In this document: piece by piece, positions 31,790 through 49,471 of the stretch | Position numbering within the stretch: position 1 is the stretch's first letter | How the letters are laid out: the number at the start of each line of letters is the position of its first letter | Source of the DNA: Caldisericales bacterium | GTDB taxonomy: Bacteria; Caldisericota; Caldisericia; JAAYUI01 | Reading direction: 5' to 3' | NCBI GenBank assembly: GCA_022707885.1 | Contig: JAKIZT010000007.1 | Coordinates: forward strand, 1-64,000 | DNA length: 64,000 nt | Program-made: the position numbers and the translations under genes | Notes under the pieces: model-generated | Database searches by the model: none | Told to the model about the DNA's origin: nothing | What the model saw: only the letters and a program-made list of their open reading frames with translations

Positions 31790-33055
31790 TCACTCAAAAC
31801 CATAAAGGTATTTGTCATCGGCAACAAGCACCAGGTCTCTTGTGGACAATACAACCTTAGCGCCCTCGCCAAGATTATTTTCCTTTTTGCTGATCTGCCA
31901 TTTTTCGTCTCCGGTGATTGGGGAAATGGCAAAAATGTTGTCCTTGTCTTCCTGCCAGTATTCTCTCTGGTTTAACGGAAGGGCCTCATCAACAACATTC
32001 AATTTGTTTTCCAGCTTGACAACCGAGTCATTCTTGTAAAGGCAAAGCAAATAGTACAATCCACCTGCTTTGAATTCGAATGGAAAATCGGTTTTCCTGT
32101 CAAGGAACGATCCGGTAGTATTTTCAATTTTTGCTTGATATTCTTTTTCGACCAGCCCGCTTACTTGATTAATCCTTATTATTTTTGTGCTATTTTCAGT
32201 AACCACATACAATCTCTCCTGGTCGACTTCAAATGAAAAATAATCCTCTATATTCTTGAAAGCCAATTCTGATATTTTGAGGGTGTCGAGATTAATCCTG
32301 AATAGCTTGTGGCCTTCGTTATTGAAAGGAGAAGTCAACACCCACAAATATCTATCCGTATTAATAACGCCGCTTATCACCTGCCCGTCAAATGATAACA
32401 TCCACTTTGGAAGGCCAGACCAGCAATTGAGGCACAAAAGTGATCTGGAATTGATACTGACAAAGATGTTGTTTTTGTATCCAACATTGTACAGATGGGC
32501 TTCTTTTATTTTGTACTCCCAAAAAATTTCATTGCTATACAAGTCCCAATAGGCAAGATTTCCGTTTTCTCTGAACCCAAAAACATTTTCACGCGTATCA
32601 AAAATGATTCCCCCAAGCGTATTTGGTTTTTCGGATTTAGGAAGAAGCATCGTTTCTCCCTGTTCTGTTTCAACCACAAATGTCATTGGCAAATATTTTA
32701 TGCTTAACAATTTGTTTTCTGGGGAAAACATATCCCTTTTAGATGTGTTTTTTAGGTCTGATGTCATTCTCCTGTATGGTAATTCTCTCCAGAGAAAGAG
32801 GTCGTACTCCTTGTTGTCAGAAACTGACAATGGGACTGGGAAATCTTTAATGGGCGCCATTTTGAAATCTTTTGCCGGTATAAGCAGTGATTTGTCCTCA
32901 AAGTTGGCATCAGGGGTAATTATGTGCTTTTCAATGTTTTCTTTCATTTTATTCATTATCCCAAGAGGACCGTTTCCAGAGCACCCCAAGACTGCAATGG
33001 CCAGAAAAACCAGCAATAAAATGCATGAATATTTTTTCATATTGTCCTTCATCAT
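31790..33055 (-). CDS. Beta-propeller lipoprotein F (PQQ-like repeats)
   Basis: 421 residues. A signal ends in the lipobox VLGC (LAIAVLGCSG), so the mature protein is predicted to be lipid-anchored outside the membrane. The body has PQQ/quinoprotein-type blades, e.g. NIFVSINSRSLLCLNCWSGLPKW and NIFAISPITGDEKWQIS. Start at 33055 follows AGGAGGG; a longer frame exists. It is a paralogue of the proteins at 33.2 and 34.5 kb, sharing a post-signal motif (SLLIPAK...FPVP here, SLLVPTN...MPVP in the 34.5 kb protein). No catalytic residues recognised. It may be an immunity- or adhesion-type partner of the RHS system upstream, but that is inference. Confidence 0.75.
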   Translation of the reverse strand: MMKDNMKKYSCILLLVFLAIAVLGCSGNGPLGIMNKMKENIEKHIITPDANFEDKSLLIPAKDFKMAPIKDFPVPLSVSDNKEYDLFLWRELPYRRMTSDLKNTSKRDMFSPENKLLSIKYLPMTFVVETEQGETMLLPKSEKPNTLGGIIFDTRENVFGFRENGNLAYWDLYSNEIFWEYKIKEAHLYNVGYKNNIFVSINSRSLLCLNCWSGLPKWMLSFDGQVISGVINTDRYLWVLTSPFNNEGHKLFRINLDTLKISELAFKNIEDYFSFEVDQERLYVVTENSTKIIRINQVSGLVEKEYQAKIENTTGSFLDRKTDFPFEFKAGGLYYLLCLYKNDSVVKLENKLNVVDEALPLNQREYWQEDKDNIFAISPITGDEKWQISKKENNLGEGAKVVLSTRDLVLVADDKYLYGFE

Positions 33056-33218
33056 GTCAGCCCTCCTAATTCCCCTAATAAAAAATGATATCACAAAGCA
33101 AATCGAATACTGCTCAAAATCAATTCAAAGTTTTTTCCAACTACCCTGCTGGGGTTTTGGCAACACTATTATGCCACATTACAAATTGTCTGTACATGGT
33201 AACATAAACAAGAGCGCC

Positions 33219-34436
33219 TTACGGCCTGAAACCGTAGACAAACTTGTCATCCCGAAGGACAACGCCATACTCGTCAGACAACATGATTGTGTAATCTTCC
33301 CCGATTCCTTTTTTGTCGATTGACCATGTATGCTTGAAGGTGTATGGATCGACTCCAATGATCTTTTTCCCATCATCAAAATAATGGTCATTTTCAAGTG
33401 CGATTATTGGATCATTGATACTGGTCACCTTCCGAGATAAAAAATGGAAGACTTCTTGCCTGTCTTTTGTTTCAATGATTAGAATATCATCTGGACCACT
33501 TCCAGTAATATCATCAGTGCTGGAGATGATTCCTGACAAATCAGAAACCATCTTTTTTTCGAATGTTTCCTCATTGACAGCGTAGATCTTCAAATCATTG
33601 TCAATATAACAAAAAGAACCATTTATGAAGCCAAGGAGAAATATATCCTTGGATGCACATACTTCCACAACGATATTCTTGTCTGGATCATATGCGTAAA
33701 CATGCGTATAGGCAGCATATTCTCCATTACTAAAATCAAAATACCGCATCCACAGACACTTGCTGTTACCACCCAAACCTGACAATATTCCTCTGTAGTC
33801 CTGCTCGCATACTATCCCCCAGGCTGGAGTGCCATCGTCAAGGTTGATTTTCGTGATGTCATTTCCAAACTCCTCCTGGACAAAAAGCTGGTTGTTCCAG
33901 ATGAAAGTGTGTTGTTTGTCCAGTCCGAATTTCCACAACACTTTTCCATTTTCCTTGTTTTCCCACATCCCAAGATAGTTTTCCCCATCAACCCTCCCAA
34001 CGGCAATTTCTCTGCCTACATCAAAATAAAACCCCATTTCTCTTATCGAACCAGTTCTGCCATCTTTGGGTGACAAAAGATATTCGGCAGAACCTCTTGA
34101 ATAAACTGCCCAGCCTTGAGGTACTGATTTGACATACCCCCGAAAATCGCCACTAGATTTGTGCAGGTATTTCTGAATGTCGTCCCTCCAGAATTCTTTT
34201 AGTTCAACGCTTGATTCTATGTATGAGCTTTCCCAAAAATTGTACTGGGAGTTCTTTTTGTCCGCATTTGTATAGATAATTTTCTTAAATTGAAGGTCTG
34301 CTTCCGCCAGACCATTGGGGGTTATCGCATACGATTTGACATCTACAACATCTTTTCTTGTAAGGTCGATGCCGGAATAACAGCCAGGGGAAAATATCAT
34401 CAATAAAATTATCAATAAACAACTCAACTTTTTCAT
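33219..34436 (-). CDS. Beta-propeller lipoprotein E
   Basis: 405 residues. Signal peptide with lipobox SPGC (IFSPGCYSG), then PQQ-like blades such as LFVQEEFGNDITKINLDDGTP and a C-terminal VVLRDDKFVYGFRP that mirrors the ends of its paralogues (LVADDKYLYGFE, LVATRDEVIAFGPP). GGGAGGCAG precedes the ATG, 26 bases after the stop of protein D, so D and E probably form one transcript. A 163-base gap separates it from F. Function unknown. Confidence 0.72.
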   Translation of the reverse strand: MKKLSCLLIILLMIFSPGCYSGIDLTRKDVVDVKSYAITPNGLAEADLQFKKIIYTNADKKNSQYNFWESSYIESSVELKEFWRDDIQKYLHKSSGDFRGYVKSVPQGWAVYSRGSAEYLLSPKDGRTGSIREMGFYFDVGREIAVGRVDGENYLGMWENKENGKVLWKFGLDKQHTFIWNNQLFVQEEFGNDITKINLDDGTPAWGIVCEQDYRGILSGLGGNSKCLWMRYFDFSNGEYAAYTHVYAYDPDKNIVVEVCASKDIFLLGFINGSFCYIDNDLKIYAVNEETFEKKMVSDLSGIISSTDDITGSGPDDILIIETKDRQEVFHFLSRKVTSINDPIIALENDHYFDDGKKIIGVDPYTFKHTWSIDKKGIGEDYTIMLSDEYGVVLRDDKFVYGFRP

Positions 34437-34462
34437 GTCACTGCCTCCCTAAAATCTGCCAC

Positions 34463-35770
34463 TCAAGGTGGCCCAAAAGCGATTACTTCATCCCGTGTCG
34501 CAACAAGAACACCTCGCCAGTCGCACTCCAGAACATCGTATGATTCGCCTTTTTCCAGCCCAAGATCGGCTTTGTCAATCCACCAGTATTGTTCGCCGGT
34601 TTCAAAATTAATACCATATATTTTTTCTTTTGTAACGAGAAGACCATAATGATTCATCACTTTATTGCCCGTTCTTGTGTATAGATAGTTGTTTGTTGAC
34701 CCCTGGATTGGAATTGGGTTTTTGGGCTCCTTGAGGTTGAAAATAAAATTGCCATTTTTTGATTTTACGCTAAGAAAGGCCACATTTGGATCTTCTACCA
34801 ATTCCAGAACGCCACCTTTTATGTATTCATCAATTTTGAAAGTTTTGGATGGCACACAAGTTTCAAGGTCCATCTCTGTCAAAACTTTGCCTTCCTCCGA
34901 TATTGCATATAGCTTGCCATTATCAATAAAAAAGGTGCAATAATTTTTGACATCAACTCTCATTATTTCAAGCGTTTCAGGATTGATTCTATAAAGATAG
35001 TCCTGTCTTGGATCAAGCCACTCGTCCCCCTCGATAAAAACATATCTACTTATGCAAGCATAACGGCCAAAAAATAGGCCAGTTCTGTCCCTTTTAAGCT
35101 CCCAGCCCGGAATCCCAGTCCAGGCATTAACTTTCGTTAAAACAATATCCAAAGTACCCATATAATACACTGATTCATTCTTTGAAAAAATCCAGTTGTC
35201 CTTCTCGTTTAAGGACAAGCTCCAGATTTCTTCACCAGAATCAACATTTACAAACATTTTATGCTCTTTAGGTGTCAATAAGCCACGGTTCTCAACAAAT
35301 GCAATTTTGTTTTTTTCATCTAATATGTCATATCTGAACCTGGCTCCAATCTTCTTGCCAGTTGCAGGATCATAAAGACCAGAATCAGAGCCATTTTGTA
35401 TCTGCCATCCATCCTCAAAGTTGTCTGAAGTGACTCCATAGCCAGAAGCATGTTCTTTCTTGAGGTTATTGTTCTTGCTCCATATCTTCTTCAGCTGGCC
35501 TTTATAAAGAAGGGGTTTTGGCTCATAGGGTTCAAGCGGTGCGTTTCTTGGCTCGCCAATTTTTGTTGGGACTGGCATCTCCTCCAGTGGGACAAGCCTA
35601 ATGTTATTGGTTGGCACAAGAAGGGAGCCTTCTGGAAGGTTTGTAGCAGTTTTTATCTCATATTTTGGATGGTTTTTGTAGACTTCTTCTCTGGACGGCG
35701 AACAGCCTGCAAAGAAAATAAATAACAAAATGATTGCAGACAGTTTCCATATGATTTTTCTCCCAAACAT
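34463..35770 (-). CDS. Beta-propeller lipoprotein D
   Basis: 435 residues with lipobox FAGC (FIFFAGCSPS), the SLLVPTNNIRLVPLEEMPVP stretch also seen in F, and PQQ-like repeats (LTKVNAWTGIPGW, YLYRINPETLEI, YGINFETGEQYWW). GGAGGAG directly upstream of ATG. It has its own promoter (35801-35829). Paralogous to E and F; function unknown. Being lipid-anchored outside the cell, it would suit protection against, or presentation of, an extracellular protein. Confidence 0.72.
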   Translation of the reverse strand: MFGRKIIWKLSAIILLFIFFAGCSPSREEVYKNHPKYEIKTATNLPEGSLLVPTNNIRLVPLEEMPVPTKIGEPRNAPLEPYEPKPLLYKGQLKKIWSKNNNLKKEHASGYGVTSDNFEDGWQIQNGSDSGLYDPATGKKIGARFRYDILDEKNKIAFVENRGLLTPKEHKMFVNVDSGEEIWSLSLNEKDNWIFSKNESVYYMGTLDIVLTKVNAWTGIPGWELKRDRTGLFFGRYACISRYVFIEGDEWLDPRQDYLYRINPETLEIMRVDVKNYCTFFIDNGKLYAISEEGKVLTEMDLETCVPSKTFKIDEYIKGGVLELVEDPNVAFLSVKSKNGNFIFNLKEPKNPIPIQGSTNNYLYTRTGNKVMNHYGLLVTKEKIYGINFETGEQYWWIDKADLGLEKGESYDVLECDWRGVLVATRDEVIAFGPP

Positions 35771-35800
35771 ATCTCCTCCTGCAGATTTTAATTAATACCA

Positions 35801-35829
35801 ATCATAAGGATTTGACGAATTCAAATCAA
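35801..35829 (-). promoter_or_regulatory. Promoter for propeller lipoproteins D-E
   Basis: On the minus strand: TTGATT (35829-35824), 17 bases, TATGAT (35806-35801). The start would be near 35794, leaving a 24-base leader with GGAGGAG before the ATG at 35770. Confidence 0.5.
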
Positions 35830-35871
35830 TTGCATGATGCCACGAGAAGAACTTTTTATACCTCAAATTGG

Positions 35872-35894
35872 AAATAGAAACTACCTTTCTATTT
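35872..35894 (-). terminator. Weak AT-rich hairpin after propeller C
   Basis: Nine-base stem AAATAGAAA/TTTCTATTT with a 5-base loop, 23 bases downstream of the stop at 35917. There is no U tract, so it could slow or protect rather than terminate; a promoter for the next gene follows it. Confidence 0.3.
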
Positions 35895-35916
35895 GTAAAC
35901 CTAGTTTAATATCATA

Positions 35917-37134
35917 TCATTTTTGGCCATATTCCATCAGATAGTAGCAAGAAACAGTGTCATTGTTCTGGAAACATATCACACCATTTCTGTAGGATAC
36001 GCCGCCAATCTGGTTAGGTACCTGATAGCTCCAAACCTTACTTCCATCTTTAATGTCATAGGCGGTAATGTATGAGGCATCCTTGTAGGCCTCATAGACA
36101 ACAGGGTTCTTTTCGAAAGCGATGAAATCCATATCTTGTGATTCTTTTACATCTATGTCTTGCAAGACTTCACCATTGCTTGCTTTGAGGCACATCAATT
36201 TTGCATGATAACTTTTGTCATCCTCCTCCGAATCTCTCTGTATGTATGGTATGAATATCTTTCCTTCCTTGATTTGTTCTTTGTTTTCCATTTTAGCCCA
36301 GGCCAAAGCAAGTTTCTTCTCCCATATCACCTTATACTCGCCATTTTGAAGACCAGCAAAGACAATACCACTACCCTCGCTGTTTCGATAACTCAAGACG
36401 ATGTTGTCTTCCATAAAAAATGCATTGTTAATTGAATTGTTTACGTCCCAAGAAAGTGCGAACTCCCACATTGTTTTTCCAGTTATTTTGTCGATCATGA
36501 ATACAGAATCATTCCTTTTGTCTTTCTCTCCAAGGCACAAGGCATACTTGTCATTTTCGTCAGAGAACCTTAGTGAGTGTAAGCCATCAACACTGTACTT
36601 TTGGATAAGGGTTTGTGTTGCTGCCGTGACGTCAAATGTGAAGATGTTCTTGCCAATGCCTACCCACAACTTGTTGTAGCTTATCTCGATACCGTTATAT
36701 TGGTCATCTGGGCTTTCTTTGTATTGTTTCAGGTTGGCATAGGGATATTCGTATCCCATGTATTCTGATACATCCGTGTAGTAAATTTCGTCACCTTTTT
36801 GTATGTAAACATCATTTTCAAAGGTGGCAATATCATAAATGGTATCATTCAAGTTTGTTGGGTACCGCCAGTTCTCATTTCCATTATCGACATTGAGAGA
36901 GTAAAAAAGATGTAGGTACGGACAACAATATGGTCCAAGGTCTCTGTACAACAGTATGCTCGAATCCATGATGATTGGCCTGATATAGGTAGCATCAAGG
37001 TCCATATTTCTCTCCCAGAGCTTTACAATGCCTGGCATTTTTGCTTCGGTTTTAACAAGTGTATATGGAAAGATGTTGGCTAAAATGACCAGAACCACAA
37101 CAAGTATCTTTCTAATTTGTGTTTTTGCCCTCAC
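35917..37134 (-). CDS. Secreted beta-propeller protein C
   Basis: 405 residues. Predicted signal peptide (RKILVVVLVILANIF...) without a lipobox Cys. PQQ-like repeats follow (FYSLNVDNGNENWRY, FMIDKITGKTMWEFAL, YDIKDGSKVWSY). Unlike A and B it has no stalk domain at the end. GTG start at 37134 placed 7-8 bases after GAGGAGGT; an ATG at 37176 is in frame but lacks an SD. It follows a short footprint of RHS sequence (37219-37228), suggesting it once sat behind an RHS tip. Confidence 0.7.
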   Translation of the reverse strand: MRAKTQIRKILVVVLVILANIFPYTLVKTEAKMPGIVKLWERNMDLDATYIRPIIMDSSILLYRDLGPYCCPYLHLFYSLNVDNGNENWRYPTNLNDTIYDIATFENDVYIQKGDEIYYTDVSEYMGYEYPYANLKQYKESPDDQYNGIEISYNKLWVGIGKNIFTFDVTAATQTLIQKYSVDGLHSLRFSDENDKYALCLGEKDKRNDSVFMIDKITGKTMWEFALSWDVNNSINNAFFMEDNIVLSYRNSEGSGIVFAGLQNGEYKVIWEKKLALAWAKMENKEQIKEGKIFIPYIQRDSEEDDKSYHAKLMCLKASNGEVLQDIDVKESQDMDFIAFEKNPVVYEAYKDASYITAYDIKDGSKVWSYQVPNQIGGVSYRNGVICFQNNDTVSCYYLMEYGQK

Positions 37135-37218
37135 TGCTCTTACCTCCTCAATTCTCGATAAACACATTTTACGCACATCTACAGTTGCTGTCCATTTTTG
37201 TAATGGTAATCACCACCT

Positions 37219-37401
37219 GTGGGGAGGGTGGAATAGGGATTATGTAGCATTTATATTCATGGTTGGTATGTGACTATGATTGTTTTGGTCTCTGCAATCC
37301 ATTTGACGGTACAACCAAGGTTCTCAGCAAGGAAACGGAGGGGAACCATGGTTCTGCCATCTTTGATGATTGGGGTTATTTTGGGGTTTTTGGGGTCGAT
37401 C
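37219..37401. repeat. 183-bp repeat, copy 1 (stalk 3' end plus RHS footprint)
   Basis: Aligns without gaps to 40523-40705 (offset 3304) with seven mismatches that I counted. It covers the last 46 codons of propeller B's stalk domain, its stop, a short spacer and about 10 bases of the RHS-core repeat. Similarity stops abruptly at both ends. Confidence 0.9.
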
Positions 37402-38759
37402 ATTACAAAATCACCATTTGCGAAAGCTTTTGGGTTATTCTTCCAAAAAATAATCGATTTTTTACCAAGTTTTATATGAGTACTTGATTCCTCCTTATCA
37501 AAAACAATATTTCCTCCAAATGGTTCGCAAACAAATCTTGCCGGAATATAAGAAATATTGTTTAGTGCAATTACTTGAGTATCCATAATCCATTTTCCAA
37601 AATCAGTTTCATACTCATTTGAGTTTATTTTAAAATTGATATTGCTCGTTGATTTACTTATACAATTAATGTAACCGTTTCTTGTTACTAAGAACAATAA
37701 ACCATTGGAATAGCTTAAATTAGAAACAATGTCAGAACCAAAACATGTTTCATTAAACATTTTTCCTGTTTTTGAATCAATTTTAATAACACAATCCCCA
37801 CTTTGGATTAACAATGTTCCCCCAGCTAATAAATTCAATCCCAAGGAGTTTAATTTTACATCATTAAAAACCCAGAGCGATTTGCCATTTCTTATATCTA
37901 ATTTTTTAATACCCATTTTCGATTCACAATATAAATATATCCCATCCGAAACTATATCCCAGTATTTATCTTGAGATTGCCAAATCACTTCAGATGTGTT
38001 TAAATTTAAGCAGAGAATCGTATTATCTTTATTGGAGGCTATCAATTTATTAGAACAAGCCATTGATAGTGGTAAATACCTTTTAAACGACCATTTTAAC
38101 TTACCTGTTATCGCATCAAAACAATGTGTAGAATCGTCATCAAAAGAGCTAATTGCAATCAAATCATCGGATAATATCATGCTATCTGGATGATATTCCG
38201 TTTGGCGATTTATTTTTCCAAGGGGTATGTTTGTTTGCCAAACAATTTCACCATTTGATGGCGATAAACTGATTATACGACGTTTCAAGTCAATTCCATA
38301 TATAGAATTATTTGTGATATTAAAATACTCTATTCCAAGAGAAGTTTCCCATACAATTTTGCCGCTCACAAAATCAATGCAATAGAAAATATCCTCAGTA
38401 TTTGCATATACATAATTTTTAAATATTGAAACTCTTATAATTGACTTTGTTGTTTCAATTCTCCACAGGATATTACCATTATCAGATTTGATACATAGTA
38501 TGGAATATTTATTTTTAATAGCACTTTGATCAGCAATGATGATTTTATCATCACTTATCAGTACTTCATTATCAAATTGGTACTTTGGCAAAGCCTTCCA
38601 TCTTAGTGCTAACGAGTTCTTTTCTTCTCCATTTGTAGTAATGGATCTAAGATTTTGTGGATTACCACCATATGATGTCCAACCCTCATGTTCTTTTCCA
38701 TATGAAGAACACAAGGTCATCATAAATATACAAAATATAACAATTGCAAAGTTCTTCAT
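37257..38759 (-). CDS. Secreted beta-propeller/stalk protein B
   Basis: 500 residues. Signal peptide (MKNFAIVIFCIFMMTLCSSYG). Six or more PQQ-like blades follow, with the classic alternation NGNILWRIE, SGKIVWETS, NGEIVWQTN, TGKLKWSFK, TSEVIWQSQ, NGKSLWVFN. The C-terminal about 120 residues are copper-amine-oxidase-N-like stalk units, ending TMVPLRFLAENLGCTVKW. The last 46 codons are nearly identical to those of protein A, while the rest is diverged. GAGGTG before ATG; it starts 34 bases after the orphan RHS tip, mirroring the A arrangement. Confidence 0.82.
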   Translation of the reverse strand: MKNFAIVIFCIFMMTLCSSYGKEHEGWTSYGGNPQNLRSITTNGEEKNSLALRWKALPKYQFDNEVLISDDKIIIADQSAIKNKYSILCIKSDNGNILWRIETTKSIIRVSIFKNYVYANTEDIFYCIDFVSGKIVWETSLGIEYFNITNNSIYGIDLKRRIISLSPSNGEIVWQTNIPLGKINRQTEYHPDSMILSDDLIAISSFDDDSTHCFDAITGKLKWSFKRYLPLSMACSNKLIASNKDNTILCLNLNTSEVIWQSQDKYWDIVSDGIYLYCESKMGIKKLDIRNGKSLWVFNDVKLNSLGLNLLAGGTLLIQSGDCVIKIDSKTGKMFNETCFGSDIVSNLSYSNGLLFLVTRNGYINCISKSTSNINFKINSNEYETDFGKWIMDTQVIALNNISYIPARFVCEPFGGNIVFDKEESSTHIKLGKKSIIFWKNNPKAFANGDFVMIDPKNPKITPIIKDGRTMVPLRFLAENLGCTVKWIAETKTIIVTYQP

Positions 38760-38793: not shown

Positions 38794-40554
38794 TTATTTG
38801 AGATTTTCAACATGGTTCCAATCTCGCATAAAAAAACTGTACCACCAACTACTTTTATCTATAGTTCCTCTGGCCCATATACCACTATCTTGATACACTT
38901 CGTATTGTCCACTTTCCCTTAGAACAATATAATTCCCATTATAGAAGATGCTACCTCCTCGTCCTTTATAACCATCAGGAGCAAGACCATCAGAAAATTG
39001 TATATCTGTATGTCTGAAATTAAAAGCATCTCTCCCAGTTTTCCCATCAAAAGTTGATACACTCCCAACAGGAATTTGTAATTTTATGCCATGACAATTT
39101 GAAATATTACCTTCTCTTTCTTTATCATATATTCCAGTTATACATGCATAAACAATAAGTCTTTCACCAGTGAAATTAACGGATGAGTAACCATCCGCGT
39201 AACTGTCCCACATACCATAAAATTCATCTGGCGATAAATTCCATTCATTATAAGTTTTAGCTGGATCATATTCTGTATTTGAAAAAGCTCCGCAACCTGG
39301 TGGGAAAAAGAATTTTGGCGTTGAACCCGATAATTGATAGCCAAGGACAGAAACTAAATAAAAACCTGTGCTTTCGTCAAATTTTAAGCCAAAAGCAGCC
39401 CACATCAAATTTGCAATATCTTCATCTGTTAAACCTTTATCTTTCAATGCTTTAATTTGATCTGCATTCAACATGCTGGGATCAAATGATGATGAGGAGT
39501 ATAAACCTCTCCTTACTAAATCAACGTCTGAACCAGCCATTTGTGGTTTTGCTGCTTCTCTCACCCAAAAATCTGAATAGTTGTTTCTTTGTTTTACAAG
39601 CTCATCCAACCATTTCATATGATCCGACATATCATCAACAGGCTCATTTTTCTTGACAGGTGGTGGATCAAACATAAATCCTAGGTTTTCGCTGTTACGT
39701 TCGAGGATGTCACCACCATCTTCAGTATCACCATTGGTACAAATAATACCGTTGATGTTTTTTTCTCCAACATCCTTGGCACCAATAAGCCTTGCATCTG
39801 GGTTGGAGTAGTCCAGGCTTGGTGGGTCAGACTGCTTGCCAGCATTCGCTATCCCATCTGCTGATCCTGGAGGGGGTGAGAAGGAGCTTGTTGCGGCAAT
39901 ATCAGAGAGTAGCTGTTGCTCAGGAAGGGAGGAGGTGGACATGGAGTTGATGGTGGAGATGGAGGTGGGGTTGGGCATGGCTGGTGAGCCTGTTCCCTGG
40001 AGGAGGGTGCCTGTCTGGGGGTTGTAGTAGCCTGAGGAGAAGTAGAGGCCAGTTTCTGTATCAAGGATGGTCTGTGATGCTCCCATGAAGGTGAAGGGGT
40101 TTGGTATGGAGTCAGGGTTGGTTTCTGAGGTGATGTTGCCAAGGGTATCATATGTGTAGGTGATCTTGGTGTCCTGGTTGGTATCTGTTACCTTAAGGGT
40201 ATTGCCATGTACATCATAGTGGTAGTAGTAGGTGGAGGTGGTTGTTGTCTGTGATTCTCCGGTTCCTGTGTGTCTTGTCCATTCAAAGGATATAGGCTGG
40301 CTGTTTGCTCCTATGTGGTATATGAGTTCCTGGTCCAGGAGGGTGGTGGAGGAGTCTCTCACTTTGTCCAGCTCTATTTCTGTTATTACTCCTCCTGCAT
40401 AGTGGTACTTGTATGTGGTCACATCTGTGTGTGGTGTACCATCTATTGTTATATGGGAGGTGTAGGTCTTTTTGAGTCTTCTTCCTGATGCATCATACTG
40501 GAAGGTAACCGTGTCATTGTTAGTGGGGAGGTTGGAATAGGGATTATGTAGCAT
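38794..40554 (-). CDS. Orphan RHS-tip cassette (displaced C-terminal end of an RHS protein)
   Basis: 586-codon frame. Residues about 7-217 copy the last 210 residues of the big RHS protein's core (631 bp, 3 mismatches), ending GLYFSSGYYNPQTGTLLQ and SLPEQQLLS. They are followed by a different 370-residue tip. The first codons (MLHNPYSN) come from the junction sequence; no SD precedes this ATG and there is no signal peptide, so it is probably not expressed unless recombined into the full-length gene. The tip's last about 150 residues are distantly similar to those of the main protein: HGIKL, FRHTD, GSIFYNGNYIVL. Confidence 0.8.
   Translation of the reverse strand: MLHNPYSNLPTNNDTVTFQYDASGRRLKKTYTSHITIDGTPHTDVTTYKYHYAGGVITEIELDKVRDSSTTLLDQELIYHIGANSQPISFEWTRHTGTGESQTTTTSTYYYHYDVHGNTLKVTDTNQDTKITYTYDTLGNITSETNPDSIPNPFTFMGASQTILDTETGLYFSSGYYNPQTGTLLQGTGSPAMPNPTSISTINSMSTSSLPEQQLLSDIAATSSFSPPPGSADGIANAGKQSDPPSLDYSNPDARLIGAKDVGEKNINGIICTNGDTEDGGDILERNSENLGFMFDPPPVKKNEPVDDMSDHMKWLDELVKQRNNYSDFWVREAAKPQMAGSDVDLVRRGLYSSSSFDPSMLNADQIKALKDKGLTDEDIANLMWAAFGLKFDESTGFYLVSVLGYQLSGSTPKFFFPPGCGAFSNTEYDPAKTYNEWNLSPDEFYGMWDSYADGYSSVNFTGERLIVYACITGIYDKEREGNISNCHGIKLQIPVGSVSTFDGKTGRDAFNFRHTDIQFSDGLAPDGYKGRGGSIFYNGNYIVLRESGQYEVYQDSGIWARGTIDKSSWWYSFFMRDWNHVENLK
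39905..40535. repeat. 631-bp RHS-core repeat, copy 2 (orphan)
   Basis: Direct repeat of 43253-43883 with constant offset 3348, no gaps and three mismatches on reading through. It encodes the end of the RHS core. The boundaries are sharp: different tip sequence on one side, stalk-gene junction on the other. Confidence 0.95.
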
Positions 40555-40705
40555 TTATATTCATGGTTGGTATGTGACTATGATTGTTTTGGTCTCTGCA
40601 ACCCATTTGACGGTACAGCCAAGGTTCTCGGCGAGGAAACGGAGGGGGACCATTGTTCTGCCATCTTTGATGATTGGGGTTATTTTGGGGTTTTTGGGGT
40701 CGATC
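40523..40705. repeat. 183-bp repeat, copy 2 (stalk 3' end and RHS junction)
   Basis: Matches 37219-37401. It contains the last 46 codons of propeller A, its stop, the spacer with the ATG of the orphan frame and the first 13 bases of the RHS repeat, thus bridging two cassettes. Confidence 0.9.
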
Positions 40706-42111
40706 TGGACTTTTTTTCCGTTGACAGTGGCGGTTGGGTTGTTGATTGTCATGCTAACAGTTTTTTTAACAAGCCCTGCCAACACATTTTTTGTCTTGCT
40801 GTTCCAGACTATGTAACCTCCCAGTGGCTCTACAAGGTACTTCGCTGGCAAATAGGTAATACCATTTATAATGGCTGGAGATGCATCAATTTCTTCTTCA
40901 CCCTTTTCAGTTTGAAGAATCTTCCTGTCAACTTGGAAAGAAATTACATCTGAGGCTTGGGAAAGAAATACCTCCAATTTTGTTTTATTGTTTTTCTCAT
41001 CATATTTCTCAATCACCACTGCCTGGTCGGAAATTGTTTTTGCGCCAGCATAATCATACTGCTGTTTATAATTGCTGTAGTCATATTTCCAGTACATCCT
41101 GTCCAGAAAGGGGTTGCCGTATGCGATGTATTCACCAAACATCCCAAAGAAACAGTCACCCTTAAAGTTGGGTTCCCAGCTGTCAACCCACTGATCAGGA
41201 GCAAACTTGTCAGTTGAAATGAATTTGCCAGTTTCAATATCAAAATACATCCTGGTGCGGATACGAGTGAAATACTTATTTCCCTCTTCAGGCAAGGAGC
41301 CAAAAAAGACAATATAATTGCCCCTAAAATCAAAAACATTGCTGTATTTATGGGTGTCTATATTCCAAATATATTTCCCGTTTTCAAGATTCGCACAAAC
41401 AAGCAGAGAGTCAATGGTATAAAAAAGTTTTCCTTTAAGAATTGCCTCTGGTGATGCTACACTGCCATACTCATCCTCCCATACTTTCTGCCTGGATTCA
41501 ATATCGTAGCAAGCTATCTTTGTTTTGTGCTTGTTAAAATCCCAATGGCTGATATACACCAGTTTGTTGCCATCCAGCAGACCATGTCCTCCAAAATTAT
41601 CGAGCTGGATTTCCCAGTTGATGCTGCCATCTTTCTTGCTGAAATTTATTACCTTTTTCTCGCAAGTCAGGATAAAAGTACCATCCCCCCTGTTATACAC
41701 CTCACCTATGTAATAGGTTGGGATTTCTTTTGTCCATATTTCATCGCCATTATTTGGATTTAAGCAGTAGAGTTTGTTGTGTACAGAAAACAAGAAACTT
41801 TCTTCATCCAGATATAATTGTGAATGGTTCTCGTATCCCTCGATCATTTTCTTCCACAATCTGTTTGTTGCCAGATTGATAACGCCAACTTCTATATTTT
41901 TTGAATTGGTCGAGAGGAAAGCGAGATTATTTTCGTTAAGAATGTATCTTATCGATCCAGCTCCTCCAGCTCCAAAAACCAGGTAGGATATTTCGTATTC
42001 ACCATTTTTACAAAATCTCTTGTCCGAGATGCCTGCAACAGATCTATATTCAAGAAGCACAAAAGAGCAAACAATCATCATGGACAAGAAAAGAGTTAGC
42101 ACCTTTCTCAT
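40561..42111 (-). CDS. Secreted beta-propeller/stalk protein A
   Basis: 516 residues. Signal peptide (MRKVLTLFLSMMIVCSFVLL...), PQQ-like blades (LYCLNPNNGDEIWTKEI, VINFSKKDGSINWEIQL, IACYDIESRQKVWEDE, VCANLENGKYIWNI), then two stalk-type units ending TMVPLRFLAENLGCTVKW. The start lies 21 bases downstream of the RHS stop, with AGGAGG between, so translation is coupled to the RHS gene, the position of an immunity gene in polymorphic toxin loci. The predicted location is extracytoplasmic. Whether it binds, folds, anchors or neutralises the RHS tip is unknown. Confidence 0.82.
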   Translation of the reverse strand: MRKVLTLFLSMMIVCSFVLLEYRSVAGISDKRFCKNGEYEISYLVFGAGGAGSIRYILNENNLAFLSTNSKNIEVGVINLATNRLWKKMIEGYENHSQLYLDEESFLFSVHNKLYCLNPNNGDEIWTKEIPTYYIGEVYNRGDGTFILTCEKKVINFSKKDGSINWEIQLDNFGGHGLLDGNKLVYISHWDFNKHKTKIACYDIESRQKVWEDEYGSVASPEAILKGKLFYTIDSLLVCANLENGKYIWNIDTHKYSNVFDFRGNYIVFFGSLPEEGNKYFTRIRTRMYFDIETGKFISTDKFAPDQWVDSWEPNFKGDCFFGMFGEYIAYGNPFLDRMYWKYDYSNYKQQYDYAGAKTISDQAVVIEKYDEKNNKTKLEVFLSQASDVISFQVDRKILQTEKGEEEIDASPAIINGITYLPAKYLVEPLGGYIVWNSKTKNVLAGLVKKTVSMTINNPTATVNGKKVQIDPKNPKITPIIKDGRTMVPLRFLAENLGCTVKWVAETKTIIVTYQP

Positions 42112-42132
42112 TTTTGGCCTCCTTTTCTTATA

Positions 42133-45100
42133 CTATGGGCACATGTACCAAGTTTTGCCTGTTCCTTCTATCTTTCTGTTGTATAGAAAAAACCAATTGT
42201 AGATTAATCCGCCTACTTCACATTTACAATGATCCACTAATTTTTTATTATTTTTATTAAAAACATCAAAGTATCCGTTTGAATATAAAACAACTTGATT
42301 ACCTGCTTCAAAAATAGATCTTTGATAAGCATATGAAGCGTTAATATCCCATGTACCATTCGGATTTACTCGATCAACATCGCAGTGCTTATAGGAAAAT
42401 TGATAATTACCAAATTTTCTAAGATCTGCAGCTCGCGTTTTGTTGACACCGTTACCTATCATAATTTTCACACCATGCGAAAAACCATCACCTGCACAAC
42501 CTACATCTAATATGACCATATTGGAGCCAGAAGTGTTTATTGATTTAACATATCCAGAACCAGGATCGCCTCTGTTGAAATATTCTTGCCACTCATCTTC
42601 CCACACATTAATGCCAGTGTAATTATCTCCTTGTTCAGTTTTGCGAATATTTTTACCATCATTCGATCCTCCCGAAGGCCAGAATATCTGGGCTCTCTGG
42701 TCACTAAGTTTGTAGCACATGACCTCAGCATGGTAGGTTGTTGTTTTTGTCTTGTCGTCATAAGTGCTGTAGACAGCAACAGCTGCAGCTTCAATGCAAT
42801 ATGTGACTTCTGTCCCCTCTGCTGTCTTGCAGGTGACAGAACCATCCTTCATGTCAAAGGTAATATCCGTACATCCTTCCTCTGTAAGGTCTTTTGTGAT
42901 TCTGTCCTTAACAGCAGCCTTTTCAACTCCATTCAGATCGTCCCATTCAGTATAGTCTCTTGGACGACCACTCATGATGTTGTTGTACTCACGCTCGGTT
43001 ATTTCGTTACCTGCATTGTCATAGTAATGTTTTATGATACCTGTGTAACCATTACCACCATCAGAACCACACCAATTGTTTGGGTCCCTCATTTCAATGC
43101 CTATCCATGGGTATGCCATTAGTGTCGGTGAGAGGCCATCTGTTATTGTTGCCTCAACTTCACTTGTTCTGGCATCAGTATCAGATCTGGCAAGTCCTTC
43201 TGACACCCCTGAGGATGGGGCATAGCTCTCAATCTGTGCATACGCCTGATGGGAGAGTAGCTGTTGCTCAGGAAGGGATGAGGTGGACATGGAGTTGATG
43301 GTGGAGATGGAGGAGGGGTTGGGCATGGCTGGTGAGCCTGTTCCCTGGAGGAGGGTGCCTGTCTGGGGGTTGTAGTAGCCTGAGGAGAAGTAGAGGCCAG
43401 TTTCTGTATCAAGGATGGTCTGTGATGCTCCCATGAAGGTGAAGGGGTTTGGTATGGAGTCAGGGTTGGTTTCTGAGGTGATGTTGCCAAGGGTATCATA
43501 TGTGTAGGTGATCTTGGTGTCCTGGTTGGTATCTGTTACCTTAAGGGTATTGCCATGTACATCATAGTGGTAGTAGTAGGTGGAGGTGGTTGTTGTCTGT
43601 GATTCTCCGGTTCCTGTGTGTCTTGTCCATTCAAAGGATATAGGCTGGCTGTTTGCTCCTATGTGGTATATGAGTTCCTGGTCCAGGAGGGTGGTGGAGG
43701 AGTCTCTCACTTTGTCCAGCTCTATTTCTGTTATTACTCCTCCTGCATAGTGGTACTTGTATGTGGTCACATCTGTGTGTGGTGTACCATCTATTGTTAT
43801 ATGGGAGGTGTAGGTCTTTTTGAGTCTTCTTCCTGATGCATCATACTGGAAGGTAACTGTGTCATTGTTAGTGGGGAGGTTGGCCTGCTTGAGCTGGTTC
43901 TCATATGTGTATTCATATGTGGTGACATAGTCCGGATCGACTGTGGGGGAGGAGGGGGAGAGCCAGATGTTCTTTCTGAGGAGGTCTTCCATCTGTTTGT
44001 TGTTTCTTGTGGCAATGTCCCAGGTGGCAGTGTCCATGTGTGAGGAGGGGAGGTATGGGGAGAGGTCATACGTCCTCAGTGAGGAGGGGGCATACCGGTG
44101 GGGGTAGTGGACCCTTGAGGATTCAAGCTTTTCTTTGGAGGGGAGGGAAGAGGGGGAGAGGACGAAGGGGGAGCCGGAGTAGTATTCCTTGCTGGTGCAG
44201 TTGCCGTTGTTGTCGTATGCAAAGAGTTCATAGGCGGTGGACTCGTAGTCAACCCTTGTGAGCCTGTCTGCGACATTGAAGGTGAAGTCGGTGTTGTCAG
44301 TTCCACCAATGTCTATATCTGTCCTGTTGCCCCTCTGGTCGTATGTGTACACGACATCATTCGTGGTGCCTGGCTTGTCAACGTTTGTGAGCCTGTTTAG
44401 TGCGTCGTATGTGTAGCTCCAGGTATCGGAGCCAACTTTTTCTGAGGTTATGTTGCCGTTGTTGTCAAATGTGTAGTCCAGGTCAAGAATTGATGTGTTG
44501 TCAGATTTCTTTACATCGATGTTTGTCATCCACCCGTTGGCATTGTACAGGTAATCGGCCAAAACACCTGTGGGGTAGTCCATGCCTGTGGCCCAGGAGT
44601 TGTCATTGTATGAGTATGAGGTGGTCTGGGAGGACCTGGTTGCCTGGGTCATTTTTCCTGCGGTGTCCCAGGTGTATGTGCGGGCATCACCCTCTGCGGT
44701 GAGCTGGGTTATCAGCCCCTCTGCATTATACTGGAACTGGTGCGTGAAGTCCCAAGGATCATCGGTTGATGTGAGTCTGCCAATGTCGTCGTATGTGAAT
44801 TCTGTTGTTCCCACTGAATCAACAAAGCTGGTCAACCTTGAGAGATCATCGTAATTGAAAGAGACCGTTGACGAATCTGGATACGAAATCTGCGTGAGTC
44901 TTGAAATGTCATCGTATGTATAACCGATTGTCTGGCTCTTCCTGTCGGTGGTGGAGGTGAGAAGCCCGTTGTCATTGTACGAGAACGTCGCATAGTGTGA
45001 AAGCTCGTCAGTGGCACGGGTGAGCCTGCCAACATCATCATACTGGAAGCCAACTGTTGGCGGTGTGGCCTGCGGAGGCTTCTTGAATTCAGTAATTCTT

Positions 45101-48100
45101 GAGTTGTCATCGTATGTATATTGATAAACATTTGATAGAGGGTCGGTGGCTTGGGTCATTCTGTAAATGGCATCATATTGATACTGCCAGTTGTTCCCCC
45201 TTCTGTCCCTCACCTGTGTGACATTACCCACGGCATCATAAGTAAATTGGGAATAATTGCCCGCAGCATCATAAGCTTTGGTGACTCTGTTCAACGCGTC
45301 ATACTCAAAATCGCAATGGTTGGTCATTGGGTCAGTAATTCTGGTCACCCTTCCTGCGTTATCGTATGTGTAGGACTGCGTTTTGCCATCAGAGTTCTCG
45401 GACGATGTCATAAGACCATCGGAGTTGTATGAGAATTCTTGGGCTGTAGTGCTTGGCCCATCAGCTTGAACAAGTTTGCCAGCATTGTCATAAGTCTTAG
45501 TCCATGACTGACTCAAAGCATTGGTCGTCTGCGTAAGTCTGTTTAGATCATCATAGGTGAAATTGGTTTCTTTCTGAAGGGCATTTGTAATCTTTGTCAG
45601 ATTGTCATTATTGTCATACTGCAATGATGTTGTTTTATTAAGAGGATTTGTGACCTGGGTGAGTCTGTCGTGCGTGTCGTACTGTAACGAGGTCGTCTTG
45701 TTCATTGGATTGGTTACAGAAGTGATGTTGGAATTGTTGTCATAAGCAACCGTTGTCGCTTCGTTTTCCGGATTTGCGACAGTTGTAACCCTGCCCAGAG
45801 TATCATATGTGTAGGATGTTCTCTTGTTCATTGGGTCCTCAACCCAATTAATTCTTCCGTCACTCCTTCTATTTATTTCAACCTCATGATTGAGGGCATT
45901 TTTGACCTTCACAAGTCTCGAGTTATTGTCATAAGTGTAGTAAATAGAGTGATTGAGAGGATCTTTTGCTTCAGTGAGATTGCCGGAGTTGTCATAATAA
46001 AAATTCCATGGATTGTTTAAAGGATCCGTAGCTGTTTTTAGTCTGCCACGATTATCGTAAATGTAGGTCCAGTCATTGCCATTGGGGTCTTCGTAGGAAG
46101 ACACCTTGCCAGTTGCAGAATTTGTATAATTCCATGTCTTTCCAGATGGACTCTGGACTGAATTCGGATAATTGTTGGAGTCATACGCTATACCCCAGGT
46201 TGAAGTACCTTGGCCATAAGGAGAAGTAACGCTTGTTAATTTGTTATTAGTATAGCCAAAGGCAACTTCCTGATTTAGGGGGTTGGTTATTTTTGTGAGC
46301 TTATTATTTGTGTATTCAAAAGAAGTATTCTTGTTTTTTGCGTCGGTATAAAGTGTTAACTGGTTGCTGGAGTTAAATGCAAAGCTTTGCGTCAATCCTT
46401 CAATATTCGTTGATGTTATGTTGCCATTTGAGTCATAAACAAGTGTTATAAGGTGACTTTTTGGATCTGTGATCTGGGTCACTTCTTTCATCGAATTTCT
46501 TTGGTATTCTGTGATCAAGGTGCCAGTTTGAATTTTTGAAATATACCCAGAGCTATCAAATGTGCACTCAGAAGTTTGTATATTTGGATCTGATATCTGT
46601 GTAACTGTATCACCTATCACATAGGATTTTTGCACTGTGCTATAGCTGTCTTTGGCACTGGTTATTTTCCCGTTAGTGTCATACTCAAATGTGTAAGATT
46701 GATTGTTTTCATTTGTTAACGATGTGAGTCTCCCCAAAAGATCATAAGCATACCCTATAAGCTTACTTTCCTGGTCTGTTCTTGTTACAAGCATATTTGA
46801 TCCATCATAGGTAAAACTAACAACTTTGGACTCTGGATCAGTTACATCAGTAAGCCTTCCCCACTGGTCATAAGTAAAAGTAAGATTTCTACTAGTTGCA
46901 TAATCAGTTACAGCTGATAGTTGGTCTTGATTCCATGAAATATCAATTCTTCCACCAAGACGGTTTGTCATTCTGAGAAGCTTGCCACCAGCACCACTAT
47001 TGTATTCGAAATAAAGTTTGTTATCGAATTTATCAAGAATGACATAATAATCAGCCCCAGAAATATTTTCTACTTGTAACTTTAGTCTTGAGAATTCAGG
47101 GGAATCCCATCCGCCAGAAGAAACATTTTTTGGAAATTCCAGATAACAGCCGTTTGAGGATCGATAAACACCATTGCCCGTCATTGAGTTTATTGTCATC
47201 TGTTGATGGTAGTTAGATGTCCAGCCGGGCCCCATGCCATAATTGACATTTGAGCATGAGTTATATGTTCGCACAAAAGACAATGACATTCCGCCGAAGA
47301 TTCCAAAACCAATGTCATATTGTGTAAGATATGTCGATCCGGTATAAGTGTTAACTGAAACGTTTCCGGCTCCATTCCCAAAACTCAAATCCGAGCCAGA
47401 CGGAGAACCACCTTCCTGATTTACAAATTCAATAACAAGTGCTGGTGCACTGCCACTTACGCTACAGTCGCTTTGGCCAGGTGCAGTTACTCTAAAACCA
47501 AAACCAACACAATCGTCTAAACCATAGAAATGATTTTTTACCATGTCCGTTACATCATATAACAATGGAACAGGCGGATTTACAGCAGGCCAGGTCAGAC
47601 CATTTCCAACTGCTTGCCCCCATGGCTGGCTTCCCCATGCCATTGTTGCTGATTCCCAACCAACTCCAACATCATATATTCCTATTCCAACAGCTGTTCC
47701 ACATGAATTGGAAATAAGTTGAGTATCAAACAAAAGATGTGCTGAGAGAATTTTTATCTTTCTTGAATAATCGATGTTGTATTTAATGTAAGTATTTGTC
47801 TCAACCACAAGTGGGGGTGTTACTATATTGGTGTTCTGAACACCAAAGTAGGAGGTCGGATAAACTGTTGTGGTCACAACCCCATTGCGGTTCTCTAAAG
47901 TTATATTATCAACAAGACCAGGATCTCCAGTTGGACAAACAAGATTTCTATTGGGTTGAATACTTGTTTCATCTCCAGATAGCGGTTTCTCTTGTGTCCC
48001 ATTCGAACCAAGAACCATTGAGAAAACTCCGTTTTTCTCCTGATATAATTTATACATCTTAGCGCCTGCTGGGGTAATATCAGTTTTTTCCTTTGGGAAT

Positions 48101-48267
48101 CTTGCCCTTTCTCCATCGACAGGTCTAGCTGATGGTGGAACACTCCGCTCGACCTGAGATGCTTTGGCAGTGCCCAGAAAAACAAAAATATTAGAAAATA
48201 GCGTAAAAGAAATAAAAACAACAATAAAAAATTTGAATTTCTTCCACATATTACCCATATTATTCAT
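42133..48267 (-). CDS. Secreted giant RHS/YD-repeat protein with variable C-terminal tip
   Basis: 2044 residues. Signal peptide (about 8-36, ending in TAKA). A DNRLRE-type carbohydrate-binding-like region at about 117-283 (ILSAHLLFDTQL... GWESATMAWGSQPW), as in WapA-like wall-associated proteins. A DUF6531-like start near 300, then dozens of YD repeats (YTYDxxGRLTxVTDP) that would form the hollow RHS shell. The core ends near 1672 with ETGLYFSSGYYNPQTG. The tip (about 1673-2044) is unrelated to known domains to my eye: Cys-rich, with HGVKI, YKHCD and SIFEAGNQVVL. Residues 1462-1672 are duplicated at 39905-40535. SD AGGTGAGGG abuts the ATG. Toxin function is inferred from architecture only. 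Confidence 0.92.
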   Translation of the reverse strand: MNNMGNMWKKFKFFIVVFISFTLFSNIFVFLGTAKASQVERSVPPSARPVDGERARFPKEKTDITPAGAKMYKLYQEKNGVFSMVLGSNGTQEKPLSGDETSIQPNRNLVCPTGDPGLVDNITLENRNGVVTTTVYPTSYFGVQNTNIVTPPLVVETNTYIKYNIDYSRKIKILSAHLLFDTQLISNSCGTAVGIGIYDVGVGWESATMAWGSQPWGQAVGNGLTWPAVNPPVPLLYDVTDMVKNHFYGLDDCVGFGFRVTAPGQSDCSVSGSAPALVIEFVNQEGGSPSGSDLSFGNGAGNVSVNTYTGSTYLTQYDIGFGIFGGMSLSFVRTYNSCSNVNYGMGPGWTSNYHQQMTINSMTGNGVYRSSNGCYLEFPKNVSSGGWDSPEFSRLKLQVENISGADYYVILDKFDNKLYFEYNSGAGGKLLRMTNRLGGRIDISWNQDQLSAVTDYATSRNLTFTYDQWGRLTDVTDPESKVVSFTYDGSNMLVTRTDQESKLIGYAYDLLGRLTSLTNENNQSYTFEYDTNGKITSAKDSYSTVQKSYVIGDTVTQISDPNIQTSECTFDSSGYISKIQTGTLITEYQRNSMKEVTQITDPKSHLITLVYDSNGNITSTNIEGLTQSFAFNSSNQLTLYTDAKNKNTSFEYTNNKLTKITNPLNQEVAFGYTNNKLTSVTSPYGQGTSTWGIAYDSNNYPNSVQSPSGKTWNYTNSATGKVSSYEDPNGNDWTYIYDNRGRLKTATDPLNNPWNFYYDNSGNLTEAKDPLNHSIYYTYDNNSRLVKVKNALNHEVEINRRSDGRINWVEDPMNKRTSYTYDTLGRVTTVANPENEATTVAYDNNSNITSVTNPMNKTTSLQYDTHDRLTQVTNPLNKTTSLQYDNNDNLTKITNALQKETNFTYDDLNRLTQTTNALSQSWTKTYDNAGKLVQADGPSTTAQEFSYNSDGLMTSSENSDGKTQSYTYDNAGRVTRITDPMTNHCDFEYDALNRVTKAYDAAGNYSQFTYDAVGNVTQVRDRRGNNWQYQYDAIYRMTQATDPLSNVYQYTYDDNSRITEFKKPPQATPPTVGFQYDDVGRLTRATDELSHYATFSYNDNGLLTSTTDRKSQTIGYTYDDISRLTQISYPDSSTVSFNYDDLSRLTSFVDSVGTTEFTYDDIGRLTSTDDPWDFTHQFQYNAEGLITQLTAEGDARTYTWDTAGKMTQATRSSQTTSYSYNDNSWATGMDYPTGVLADYLYNANGWMTNIDVKKSDNTSILDLDYTFDNNGNITSEKVGSDTWSYTYDALNRLTNVDKPGTTNDVVYTYDQRGNRTDIDIGGTDNTDFTFNVADRLTRVDYESTAYELFAYDNNGNCTSKEYYSGSPFVLSPSSLPSKEKLESSRVHYPHRYAPSSLRTYDLSPYLPSSHMDTATWDIATRNNKQMEDLLRKNIWLSPSSPTVDPDYVTTYEYTYENQLKQANLPTNNDTVTFQYDASGRRLKKTYTSHITIDGTPHTDVTTYKYHYAGGVITEIELDKVRDSSTTLLDQELIYHIGANSQPISFEWTRHTGTGESQTTTTSTYYYHYDVHGNTLKVTDTNQDTKITYTYDTLGNITSETNPDSIPNPFTFMGASQTILDTETGLYFSSGYYNPQTGTLLQGTGSPAMPNPSSISTINSMSTSSLPEQQLLSHQAYAQIESYAPSSGVSEGLARSDTDARTSEVEATITDGLSPTLMAYPWIGIEMRDPNNWCGSDGGNGYTGIIKHYYDNAGNEITEREYNNIMSGRPRDYTEWDDLNGVEKAAVKDRITKDLTEEGCTDITFDMKDGSVTCKTAEGTEVTYCIEAAAVAVYSTYDDKTKTTTYHAEVMCYKLSDQRAQIFWPSGGSNDGKNIRKTEQGDNYTGINVWEDEWQEYFNRGDPGSGYVKSINTSGSNMVILDVGCAGDGFSHGVKIMIGNGVNKTRAADLRKFGNYQFSYKHCDVDRVNPNGTWDINASYAYQRSIFEAGNQVVLYSNGYFDVFNKNNKKLVDHCKCEVGGLIYNWFFLYNRKIEGTGKTWYMCP
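43253..43883. repeat. 631-bp RHS-core repeat, copy 1 (in the full-length gene)
   Basis: Encodes the end of the RHS core, from LPTNND to SLPEQQLLS. Near-identical to 39905-40535 (3 mismatches). Recombination between the copies would delete 3348 bp and replace tip A and propeller A with tip B and propeller B. Confidence 0.95.
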
Positions 48268-48580: not shown

Positions 48581-49471
48581 CTATCCTATCTCCTTTTTTA
48601 TTGCCTCCTCGGCATTTTTTGCAGTATCAGGGCTATAGCCGTCATGCTGAAAAACAATGACGCCGTCTTTGGAAACCAGCGACATGTTTGGGACATTGAG
48701 CCCACCCCATTTGTAATATGTCTCGGCAAGAGGATCAAGAAGGATTGTATATGTTACCTTCAGTTCATTCAAAAGCAGGTCGCGCTCGTCTTCAAGGAAG
48801 TCGGAATCGGTACAGATGCCAATCACAACGAGCCCTTTGTCTTTGTATGCATTATAGAGTTTTACAAGCTCTGGCATCTCTCTCCTGCATGGCACACATC
48901 TTGTTGACCAAAAATTGACCAAAACACATTTTGTAGATTTTTCAGCAAGTATTTCAGACAAGGTGACATTTTTCCCATTAATGTCAGGCAGGGTAAAATC
49001 GGTCGCCCTGGGTTTGAGAAGCTCCGGGTCAACTTCCATGTAAAGACTTTTGCCATCAATCTTTGTTATCGGAAGACCAAATTTGTCTTTTAATATTTCT
49101 GATGGCACAAGCATTCTCTCCCATTTAATAAAAGGAGTATTTAAAAGCTGTTTCTTTTCACCCATGTCTTTGTAGGTCTTGCTGCCAGCTGTTATCTCGA
49201 TATTTTTTCCCTGGCCCCTTATGATTGCAGTCTTTACAGTTGGCATCCAGCCAATTTTGTGGCCGGTTTTCTCGGCAACATACCGGAGAGGAAAGAAATA
49301 TTCCCCATCGACAAGGGTTGGCCCCACATCAAGCTTGTCCTTCTTGTCGCCAACCTCAACCACACGAAAATCCAGCCTCCACCAGATTAAAACTGGGGAA
49401 GATGCACCAAGAAATAGAAGGGCGCTAATTGCCAGAGCAAAGCTCTTGTACCATCTGCTCAAGTTTTGCAT
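48581..49471 (-). CDS. Stalk-domain/TlpA-like thioredoxin fusion 1
   Basis: 296 residues. An N-terminal hydrophobic signal or anchor, then a copper-amine-oxidase-N-like stalk domain (about 40-150; YFFPLRYVAEKTGHKIGW), then a TlpA/ResA-type thioredoxin domain (about 155-296) with WSTRCVPC as the active-site CxxC and GVIVF/NVPNMSLVSKDG after it. Predicted to act outside the membrane in disulfide reduction or cytochrome/cell-wall redox work. ATG at 49471 follows GAGGAGG, and the gene overlaps its tandem paralogue upstream by 47 bases. The cis-Pro region reads NVPNM. Confidence 0.85.
   Translation of the reverse strand: MQNLSRWYKSFALAISALLFLGASSPVLIWWRLDFRVVEVGDKKDKLDVGPTLVDGEYFFPLRYVAEKTGHKIGWMPTVKTAIIRGQGKNIEITAGSKTYKDMGEKKQLLNTPFIKWERMLVPSEILKDKFGLPITKIDGKSLYMEVDPELLKPRATDFTLPDINGKNVTLSEILAEKSTKCVLVNFWSTRCVPCRREMPELVKLYNAYKDKGLVVIGICTDSDFLEDERDLLLNELKVTYTILLDPLAETYYKWGGLNVPNMSLVSKDGVIVFQHDGYSPDTAKNAEEAIKKEIG

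Follow-up and report, generated by a model that had tools for sequence, protein, structure and literature searches.

The 64,000-nucleotide stretch of contig JAKIZT010000007.1 (assembly GCA_022707885.1, Caldisericales bacterium) that was analysed here, referred to as the window, contains a gene for a large RHS protein followed by a series of genes for exported beta-propeller proteins, all of which, together with the features within them, lie on the minus strand. The RHS gene (42133..48267) encodes a protein of 2044 amino acids with an N-terminal export signal, a DUF6531 domain, 18 RHS_repeat stretches (Pfam, E 1.5e-108) and a variable C-terminal domain, or tip, with no recognised fold (tip A; 42133..43252). 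The next gene, propeller A (40561..42111), starts 21 nucleotides after the RHS stop codon, and the gap contains an AGGAGG ribosome-binding site (42118..42123) located 6 nucleotides 5' of the ATG. Propeller A is followed by an orphan RHS fragment (38794..40554) that has no export signal of its own and carries a second tip (tip B; 38794..39904). The gene for propeller B (37257..38759) starts 34 nucleotides after this tip, with GAGGTGA as a plausible ribosome-binding site. A first-pass annotation of the window had reported the same arrangement, and its coordinates for both gene starts held. The upper boundary that it had drawn at 43252 proved to be the exact edge of an RHS segment conserved between the two cassettes.

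Propellers A and B both have a hydrophobic N-terminal export signal, PQQ_2 repeats (E 1.8e-11 in A and 5.4e-17 in B) and a C-terminal stalk domain (Cu_amine_oxidN1, PF07833; E 2.8e-28 and 2.6e-26), in agreement with their earlier description as secreted PQQ-like propellers with a stalk. The stalk occupies residues 406-512 of propeller A (40576..40896) and residues 392-496 of propeller B (37272..37586) in Pfam searches, in which the PQQ_2 repeats of the two proteins were generic only. Neither protein contains a lipobox. The AlphaFold model of propeller A was of middling confidence (predicted local distance difference test [pLDDT] score, 56) and consisted of a run of beta strands, with the stalk better predicted. 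The nearest PDB matches of this model were chains of BamB, a propeller of the PQQ_2 family. However, propeller A differs from BamB in being fused to a stalk, and identity with BamB was rejected because scores were 32 and 53 bits against a curated cut-off of 285 and because no Omp85/BamA protein was found in seven genomes of the class with a search that does detect Omp85 in E. coli and Thermotoga. The propellers matched no curated immunity or defence family, the hits being to propeller, stalk and sub-cut-off BamB-like families, and PADLOC returned none. The best records in a plasmid search with propeller A matched the stalk domain only. Because full-length searches were swamped by the stalk, the propeller part was searched alone.

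The two cassettes are strongly diverged in their variable parts. Tips A and B, both assigned to type 1, are 27% identical, and the propeller parts of the adjacent proteins are 24% identical, compared to 81% identity in the last part of the stalk. For these two cassettes, the earlier proposal that the propellers had diverged in step with the tips is borne out. Both divergent cassettes are bracketed by near-identical DNA. The 5' arm, a 631-bp segment at the 3' end of the RHS core (43253..43883), is 99.5% identical to its copy in the orphan cassette (39905..40535), so that variable tips are carried on a constant core, and sister species carry different tips. The 3' arm (40523..40705; 183 bp) comprises the end of the stalk and 38 bp past the stop codon and is 96.2% identical to its copy at 37219..37401. 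The same two-arm plan recurs independently in a second RHS family in the genome from which the window comes (G000, contig C8), where two lipoprotein partners adjacent to tips are 27% identical over most of their length and 97% identical over the last 59 residues; the arms of these cassettes measure 165 bp at 98% identity at the RHS end and 187 bp at 92% at the partner end. In addition to the orphan tip cassette in the window, several others are found in G004, on contig C8 of G000 and in G020. The paired arms around both cassettes suggest that tip and partner can be exchanged together, a recombination history that we infer from the pattern of identity. The tips themselves are mosaics, since tip B (window 39676-39945) and a tip of a second type, type 2 (L075 10258-11385), have the pre-tip stretch GAKDVGEKNINGIICTNG in common.

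The window comes from a 1.94-Mb metagenome-assembled genome (MAG), whose closest named relatives are Caldisericia/Caldisericales MAGs; two of these have 'SlDig' in their isolate names, which we read as sludge digester. The comparison included four relatives from the same genus or family, and the survey of what follows RHS tips elsewhere covered 11 genomes, in which the downstream gene could be seen for 29 tips. The next same-strand gene encoded a protein with a strong hydrophobic N-terminal export segment after 27 of these tips, compared to 72 of 156 other genes (Fisher's exact test, P = 9e-7), a background that was drawn from the flanks of these loci only and is biased towards related arrays, which it contains. 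In a 28th case (G008 contig C43; L148 1343-3661), an insertion sequence splits a lipoprotein propeller gene, so that the signal peptide lies directly after the tip and the propeller lies beyond the element. An exported or anchored product, in many cases a propeller lipoprotein, is thus encoded by the next gene in 28 of the 29 cassettes. In the remaining one (G009; L086 350-1492), a propeller gene starts 4 nucleotides after the RHS stop codon and is the only PQQ_2 match in that genome. When later start codons were allowed for, the gaps between tip and partner in intact cassettes ranged from -4 to about 120 nucleotides. About half of the 29 partners had Pfam matches to PQQ_2, SBBP or DUF5050 repeats, the last of which we take to be a propeller family. 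In most cassettes other than those of the window, the partner was a lipoprotein or membrane protein without a stalk.

A single adjacency between an RHS gene and a propeller gene means little, because PQQ propellers are abundant in the genus. The 1.9-Mb genome from which the window comes contains 127 PQQ_2 segments, which represent a very large lineage-specific expansion, compared to one in G009, and it also encodes dozens of stalk proteins. With such numbers, some propeller and stalk genes might adjoin RHS genes by coincidence. However, the occupancy of the slot by exported proteins in 28 of 29 cassettes across several families, and the placement of the sole PQQ_2 match of G009 directly after an RHS gene, led us to reject chance adjacency, as did the paired exchange arms and the correspondence between tip type and partner type described below. 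We regard coincidence as extremely improbable.

Within the RHS family of the window, the type of tip predicted the type of partner. Type 1 tips (A and B of the window, and one in G004) are followed by a PQQ propeller with a stalk, and type 2 tips (in G001, in G002 and twice in G004) are followed by a non-propeller N-terminal module with a stalk. Profile comparison showed that the two partner families have the stalk alone in common. The propeller is therefore not the sole solution, since type 2 tips appear to use another N-terminal module on the same stalk.

Propeller B is followed on the same strand by an array of four further genes without tips (31790-37176), which were absent from the features listed in the first-pass annotation. 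Propeller C (35917..37176) is exported, has no stalk, and may be a retained partner; its orthologue in G001 differs in a local hypervariable patch. Propeller D (34463..35770) is a lipoprotein (FFAGC) with a hypervariable middle and a weak PQQ_2 match (E 1.2e-4). The propeller-like gene E (33219..34436) has a lipoprotein signal (FSPGC) and only a trace PQQ_2 match (E 0.081), and propeller F (31790..33094), which is conserved in three species, encodes a lipoprotein (AVLGC) with a weak match (E 1.1e-3). The lipoprotein signals of D, E and F were read from the sequence. The array adjoins a kdp-like operon, and G001 and G003 carry a different gene set at the same site; the site next to kdpD is a species-variable hot spot.

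Orthologues of partners were retained without a tip in three cases in total. Propeller D, tip-less in the window and in G001, directly follows a tip in the sister species G003. A type 2 partner of 353 amino acids is preceded by a tip in G002, whereas its counterpart in G001, at 91% identity, has none, and the lipoprotein that follows the tip on contig C9 of G003 is tip-less in G000, with 83% identity. Between species, array orthologues (C, D, E and a further array propeller, X) had identities of mostly 80-97%, interrupted by one local patch in which identity dropped to 23-53%. Propeller X (L075 3733-4881; L076 6685-7836) is nearly identical in two species, with a patch down to 23%. The patches in X, and likewise those in C, D and E, look like the outcome of local exchange or of diversifying selection at a binding face, and they resemble the variable regions of tandem immunity genes (PMC9484751).

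Information on what the tips might do came from sister RHS loci, in which 17 tips could be aligned around one invariant Glu (17/17) with GLMQ and YNG motifs. Together these features form a lytic transglycosylase signature, and the sister tips were therefore read as lysozyme-like. PF01464 matches were detected in 4 of the 17, with a best E-value of 0.0012, and alignment of the sister-tip profile with a true SLT domain in hhalign gave an E-value of 5.5e-4. Two RHS tips of G008 are the only PF01464 matches in that genome, and neither reaches the gathering cut-off. When the first six sister tips were used to search the PDB, lysozyme-like chitinases were retrieved at an E-value of 0.19; profile searches of the PDB with tip types 1 and 2 gave nothing useful. 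We assign the sister tips to a lysozyme-like or lytic transglycosylase-like group with moderate confidence. The failure to find Omp85 suggests that the cell wall is probably directly exposed in these organisms. If so, an antidote to tips that target the wall would have to sit outside the membrane, and the partners are predicted to be located there.

These results suggest that the locus is a polymorphic RHS module in which the gene after the tip encodes the tip's exported cognate partner, most likely an extracytoplasmic immunity protein, a conclusion in which we have fair though incomplete confidence. Extracytoplasmic immunity had already been suggested in the first-pass annotation. The position of the gene in the slot, the export and anchoring signals, the tip-less copies, the type matching and the lysozyme-like sister tips all speak for that suggestion, although no toxin fold could be recognised in tips A and B. 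The gene anatomy, the conserved slot, the export or anchor signals, the arms, the tip-less orthologues and the type matching in the RHS family of the window are observed, and from these we infer that the tips are toxic and that the partners bind and neutralise them, with propeller A as the putative partner of tip A and propeller B of tip B.

In the proposed mechanism, the RHS protein would be exported via Sec and would display its variable C-terminal tip, whose site of action in neighbouring cells would lie outside the cytoplasmic membrane. The resemblance of the sister tips to lytic transglycosylases makes peptidoglycan the likely target of the sister RHS proteins. A lipid anchor, a membrane helix or possibly the stalk would keep the partner at the surface, where it would bind and block the matching tip. 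Variable recognition could fall to the beta-propeller, and the constant part could be the stalk or, in the lipoprotein family, the last propeller blade. The constant parts at the 3' ends of the RHS and partner genes might double as DNA exchange arms that permit tip and partner to be swapped jointly. When a tip is replaced, the old partner could stay behind, giving rise to arrays such as C to F. It is possible to extend this proposal to a scheme in which beta-propellers (PQQ, DUF5050 and SBBP) would provide a general scaffold for evolving antidotes at the outer face of a single-membrane Caldisericia cell, with tip and propeller swapped as a unit between two homology arms and discarded propellers forming an antidote library; our confidence in this broader version is evenly balanced. 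If the interpretation is correct, it would assign a role, that of an outside-facing antidote, to an abundant and poorly understood class of genes for secreted propellers and stalks. The locus would also illustrate how an exchange arm can form part of the immunity gene itself, and coupled swapping of toxin and antidote would be directly testable.

Several observations weigh against extracytoplasmic immunity. Searches of Pfam, curated families and PDB profiles recognised no toxin fold in tips A and B, AlphaFold gave no usable model of tip A (pLDDT 36), and these tips might not be toxins. For most of the sister tips taken singly, the sequence evidence for a lysozyme-like assignment is weak, and the larger lysozyme-like profile (A9) retrieved no lysozyme-like PDB chains. 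Surface retention of propellers A and B, which are not lipoproteins, would depend on a putative role of the stalk as an anchor. The G009 partner has no export signal and may be cytoplasmic, and about half of the 29 partners had no significant Pfam match to a propeller. Propellers and stalks are also very common in these genomes. Among the lysozyme-like cassettes of family f5, similarity between tips did not predict similarity between partners (Mantel-type test, Spearman 0.11, P = 0.20), and two very similar tips in G012 have unrelated partners. Codivergence of lysozyme-like tips and their partners was significant in the lineage-confounded full set only (P = 0.022) and was not used as support.

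The strict order of tip and partner, the short gaps and the matching of partners to tip types would also be expected if the partner were a chaperone dedicated to secretion or folding, or a maturation factor, that associates with its tip while this is exported and prevents activity before delivery, because chaperones also covary with their cargo. However, a chaperone without cargo does not explain the three cases of tip-less orthologues in arrays, and the partners, which are anchored outside the membrane, come from several propeller families that are unrelated to one another. Thus, it seems unlikely that the partner is a chaperone. A role as a surface anchor or docking platform, with the stalk attached to the wall and the propeller to the tip so that the RHS protein is kept on the producing cell, fits the combination of a constant stalk with an exchangeable propeller or type 2 module, as well as the missing lipobox in propellers A and B. 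However, one would expect a tether to hold the constant RHS core rather than the variable tip, and there would be no need to keep it once the tip is lost; moreover, the partners in most other cassettes lack a stalk. We consider this role quite unlikely.

Another alternative is that RHS proteins function in adhesion or kin recognition rather than as toxins, with tip and propeller acting as coreceptors or adhesins that recognise a surface partner. Type 2 tips, like A and B, lack a toxin signature, and both propellers and stalk domains occur commonly as surface modules in these genomes. Against this, the sister tips in the same genus are lysozyme-like, and the arrays of tip-less partners resemble immunity arrays (PMC5361080), which makes a coreceptor function very unlikely. 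The chaperone, tether and coreceptor readings account for the tip-less partners less well than extracytoplasmic immunity does.

The layout of main and orphan RHS loci is already known. In Salmonella rhs loci, a full-length rhs gene with tip and downstream gene is followed by an orphan tip, which has a downstream gene as well, and main and orphan loci have a near-identical core segment in common (522 bp at 95%; PMC3967940), corresponding to the 631 bp found here. Unlike in Salmonella, the partners in the window are exported propellers with a stalk, a second arm is located in the 3' end of the partner gene, and Omp85 is not detectable. We regard the exported propeller partner with its own 3' arm as a variant of polymorphic RHS toxin-immunity modules. 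In the type VI secretion system of Vibrio, new modules displace old toxins and the old immunity genes stay as arrays (PMC5361080). Putative immunity genes appear to be kept after tip loss in the Caldisericia as well, but here the RHS proteins have Sec-type signals and the array genes encode propeller lipoproteins. Clusters of EsaG and TipC genes, associated with the type VII secretion system, are also tandem paralogues with conserved blocks (in tipC, the 5' and 3' ends) that permit recombination of variable middles (PMC9484751); the toxins, the secretion system and the folds are different.

The precedent found for a propeller antidote is Tsi1, the periplasmic immunity protein of the peptidoglycan amidase Tse1, which is a partial beta-propeller (PMC3391265). 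Like Tsi1, the partners described here would be extracytoplasmic proteins with a propeller fold directed against a peptidoglycan hydrolase. The Tsi1 fold is a fragment of three sheets similar to DPP IV propellers, whereas the partners here are of the PQQ type, DUF5050 or SBBP and are often lipidated or fused to a stalk. Beta-propellers were not found among the immunity proteins in a broad survey of polymorphic toxins in 2012 (PMC3482391), and our search of the literature, whose coverage mostly left out subscription papers, revealed no propeller immunity protein besides Tsi1.

Other genes near RHS loci were also noted. Three genomes of the genus (L079, L082 and L083) have a second RHS gene that is adjacent to, and divergent from, a cas3-like helicase gene, and in L083 also a cse1-like gene. 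An RHS gene related to that of the window (44%) was found on a contig labelled Bacteroidota (L096), which is possibly mis-binned. In the window itself, two genes 5' of the RHS gene (48581-50342) fuse a PF07833 stalk to a thioredoxin-like/AhpC-TSA domain.

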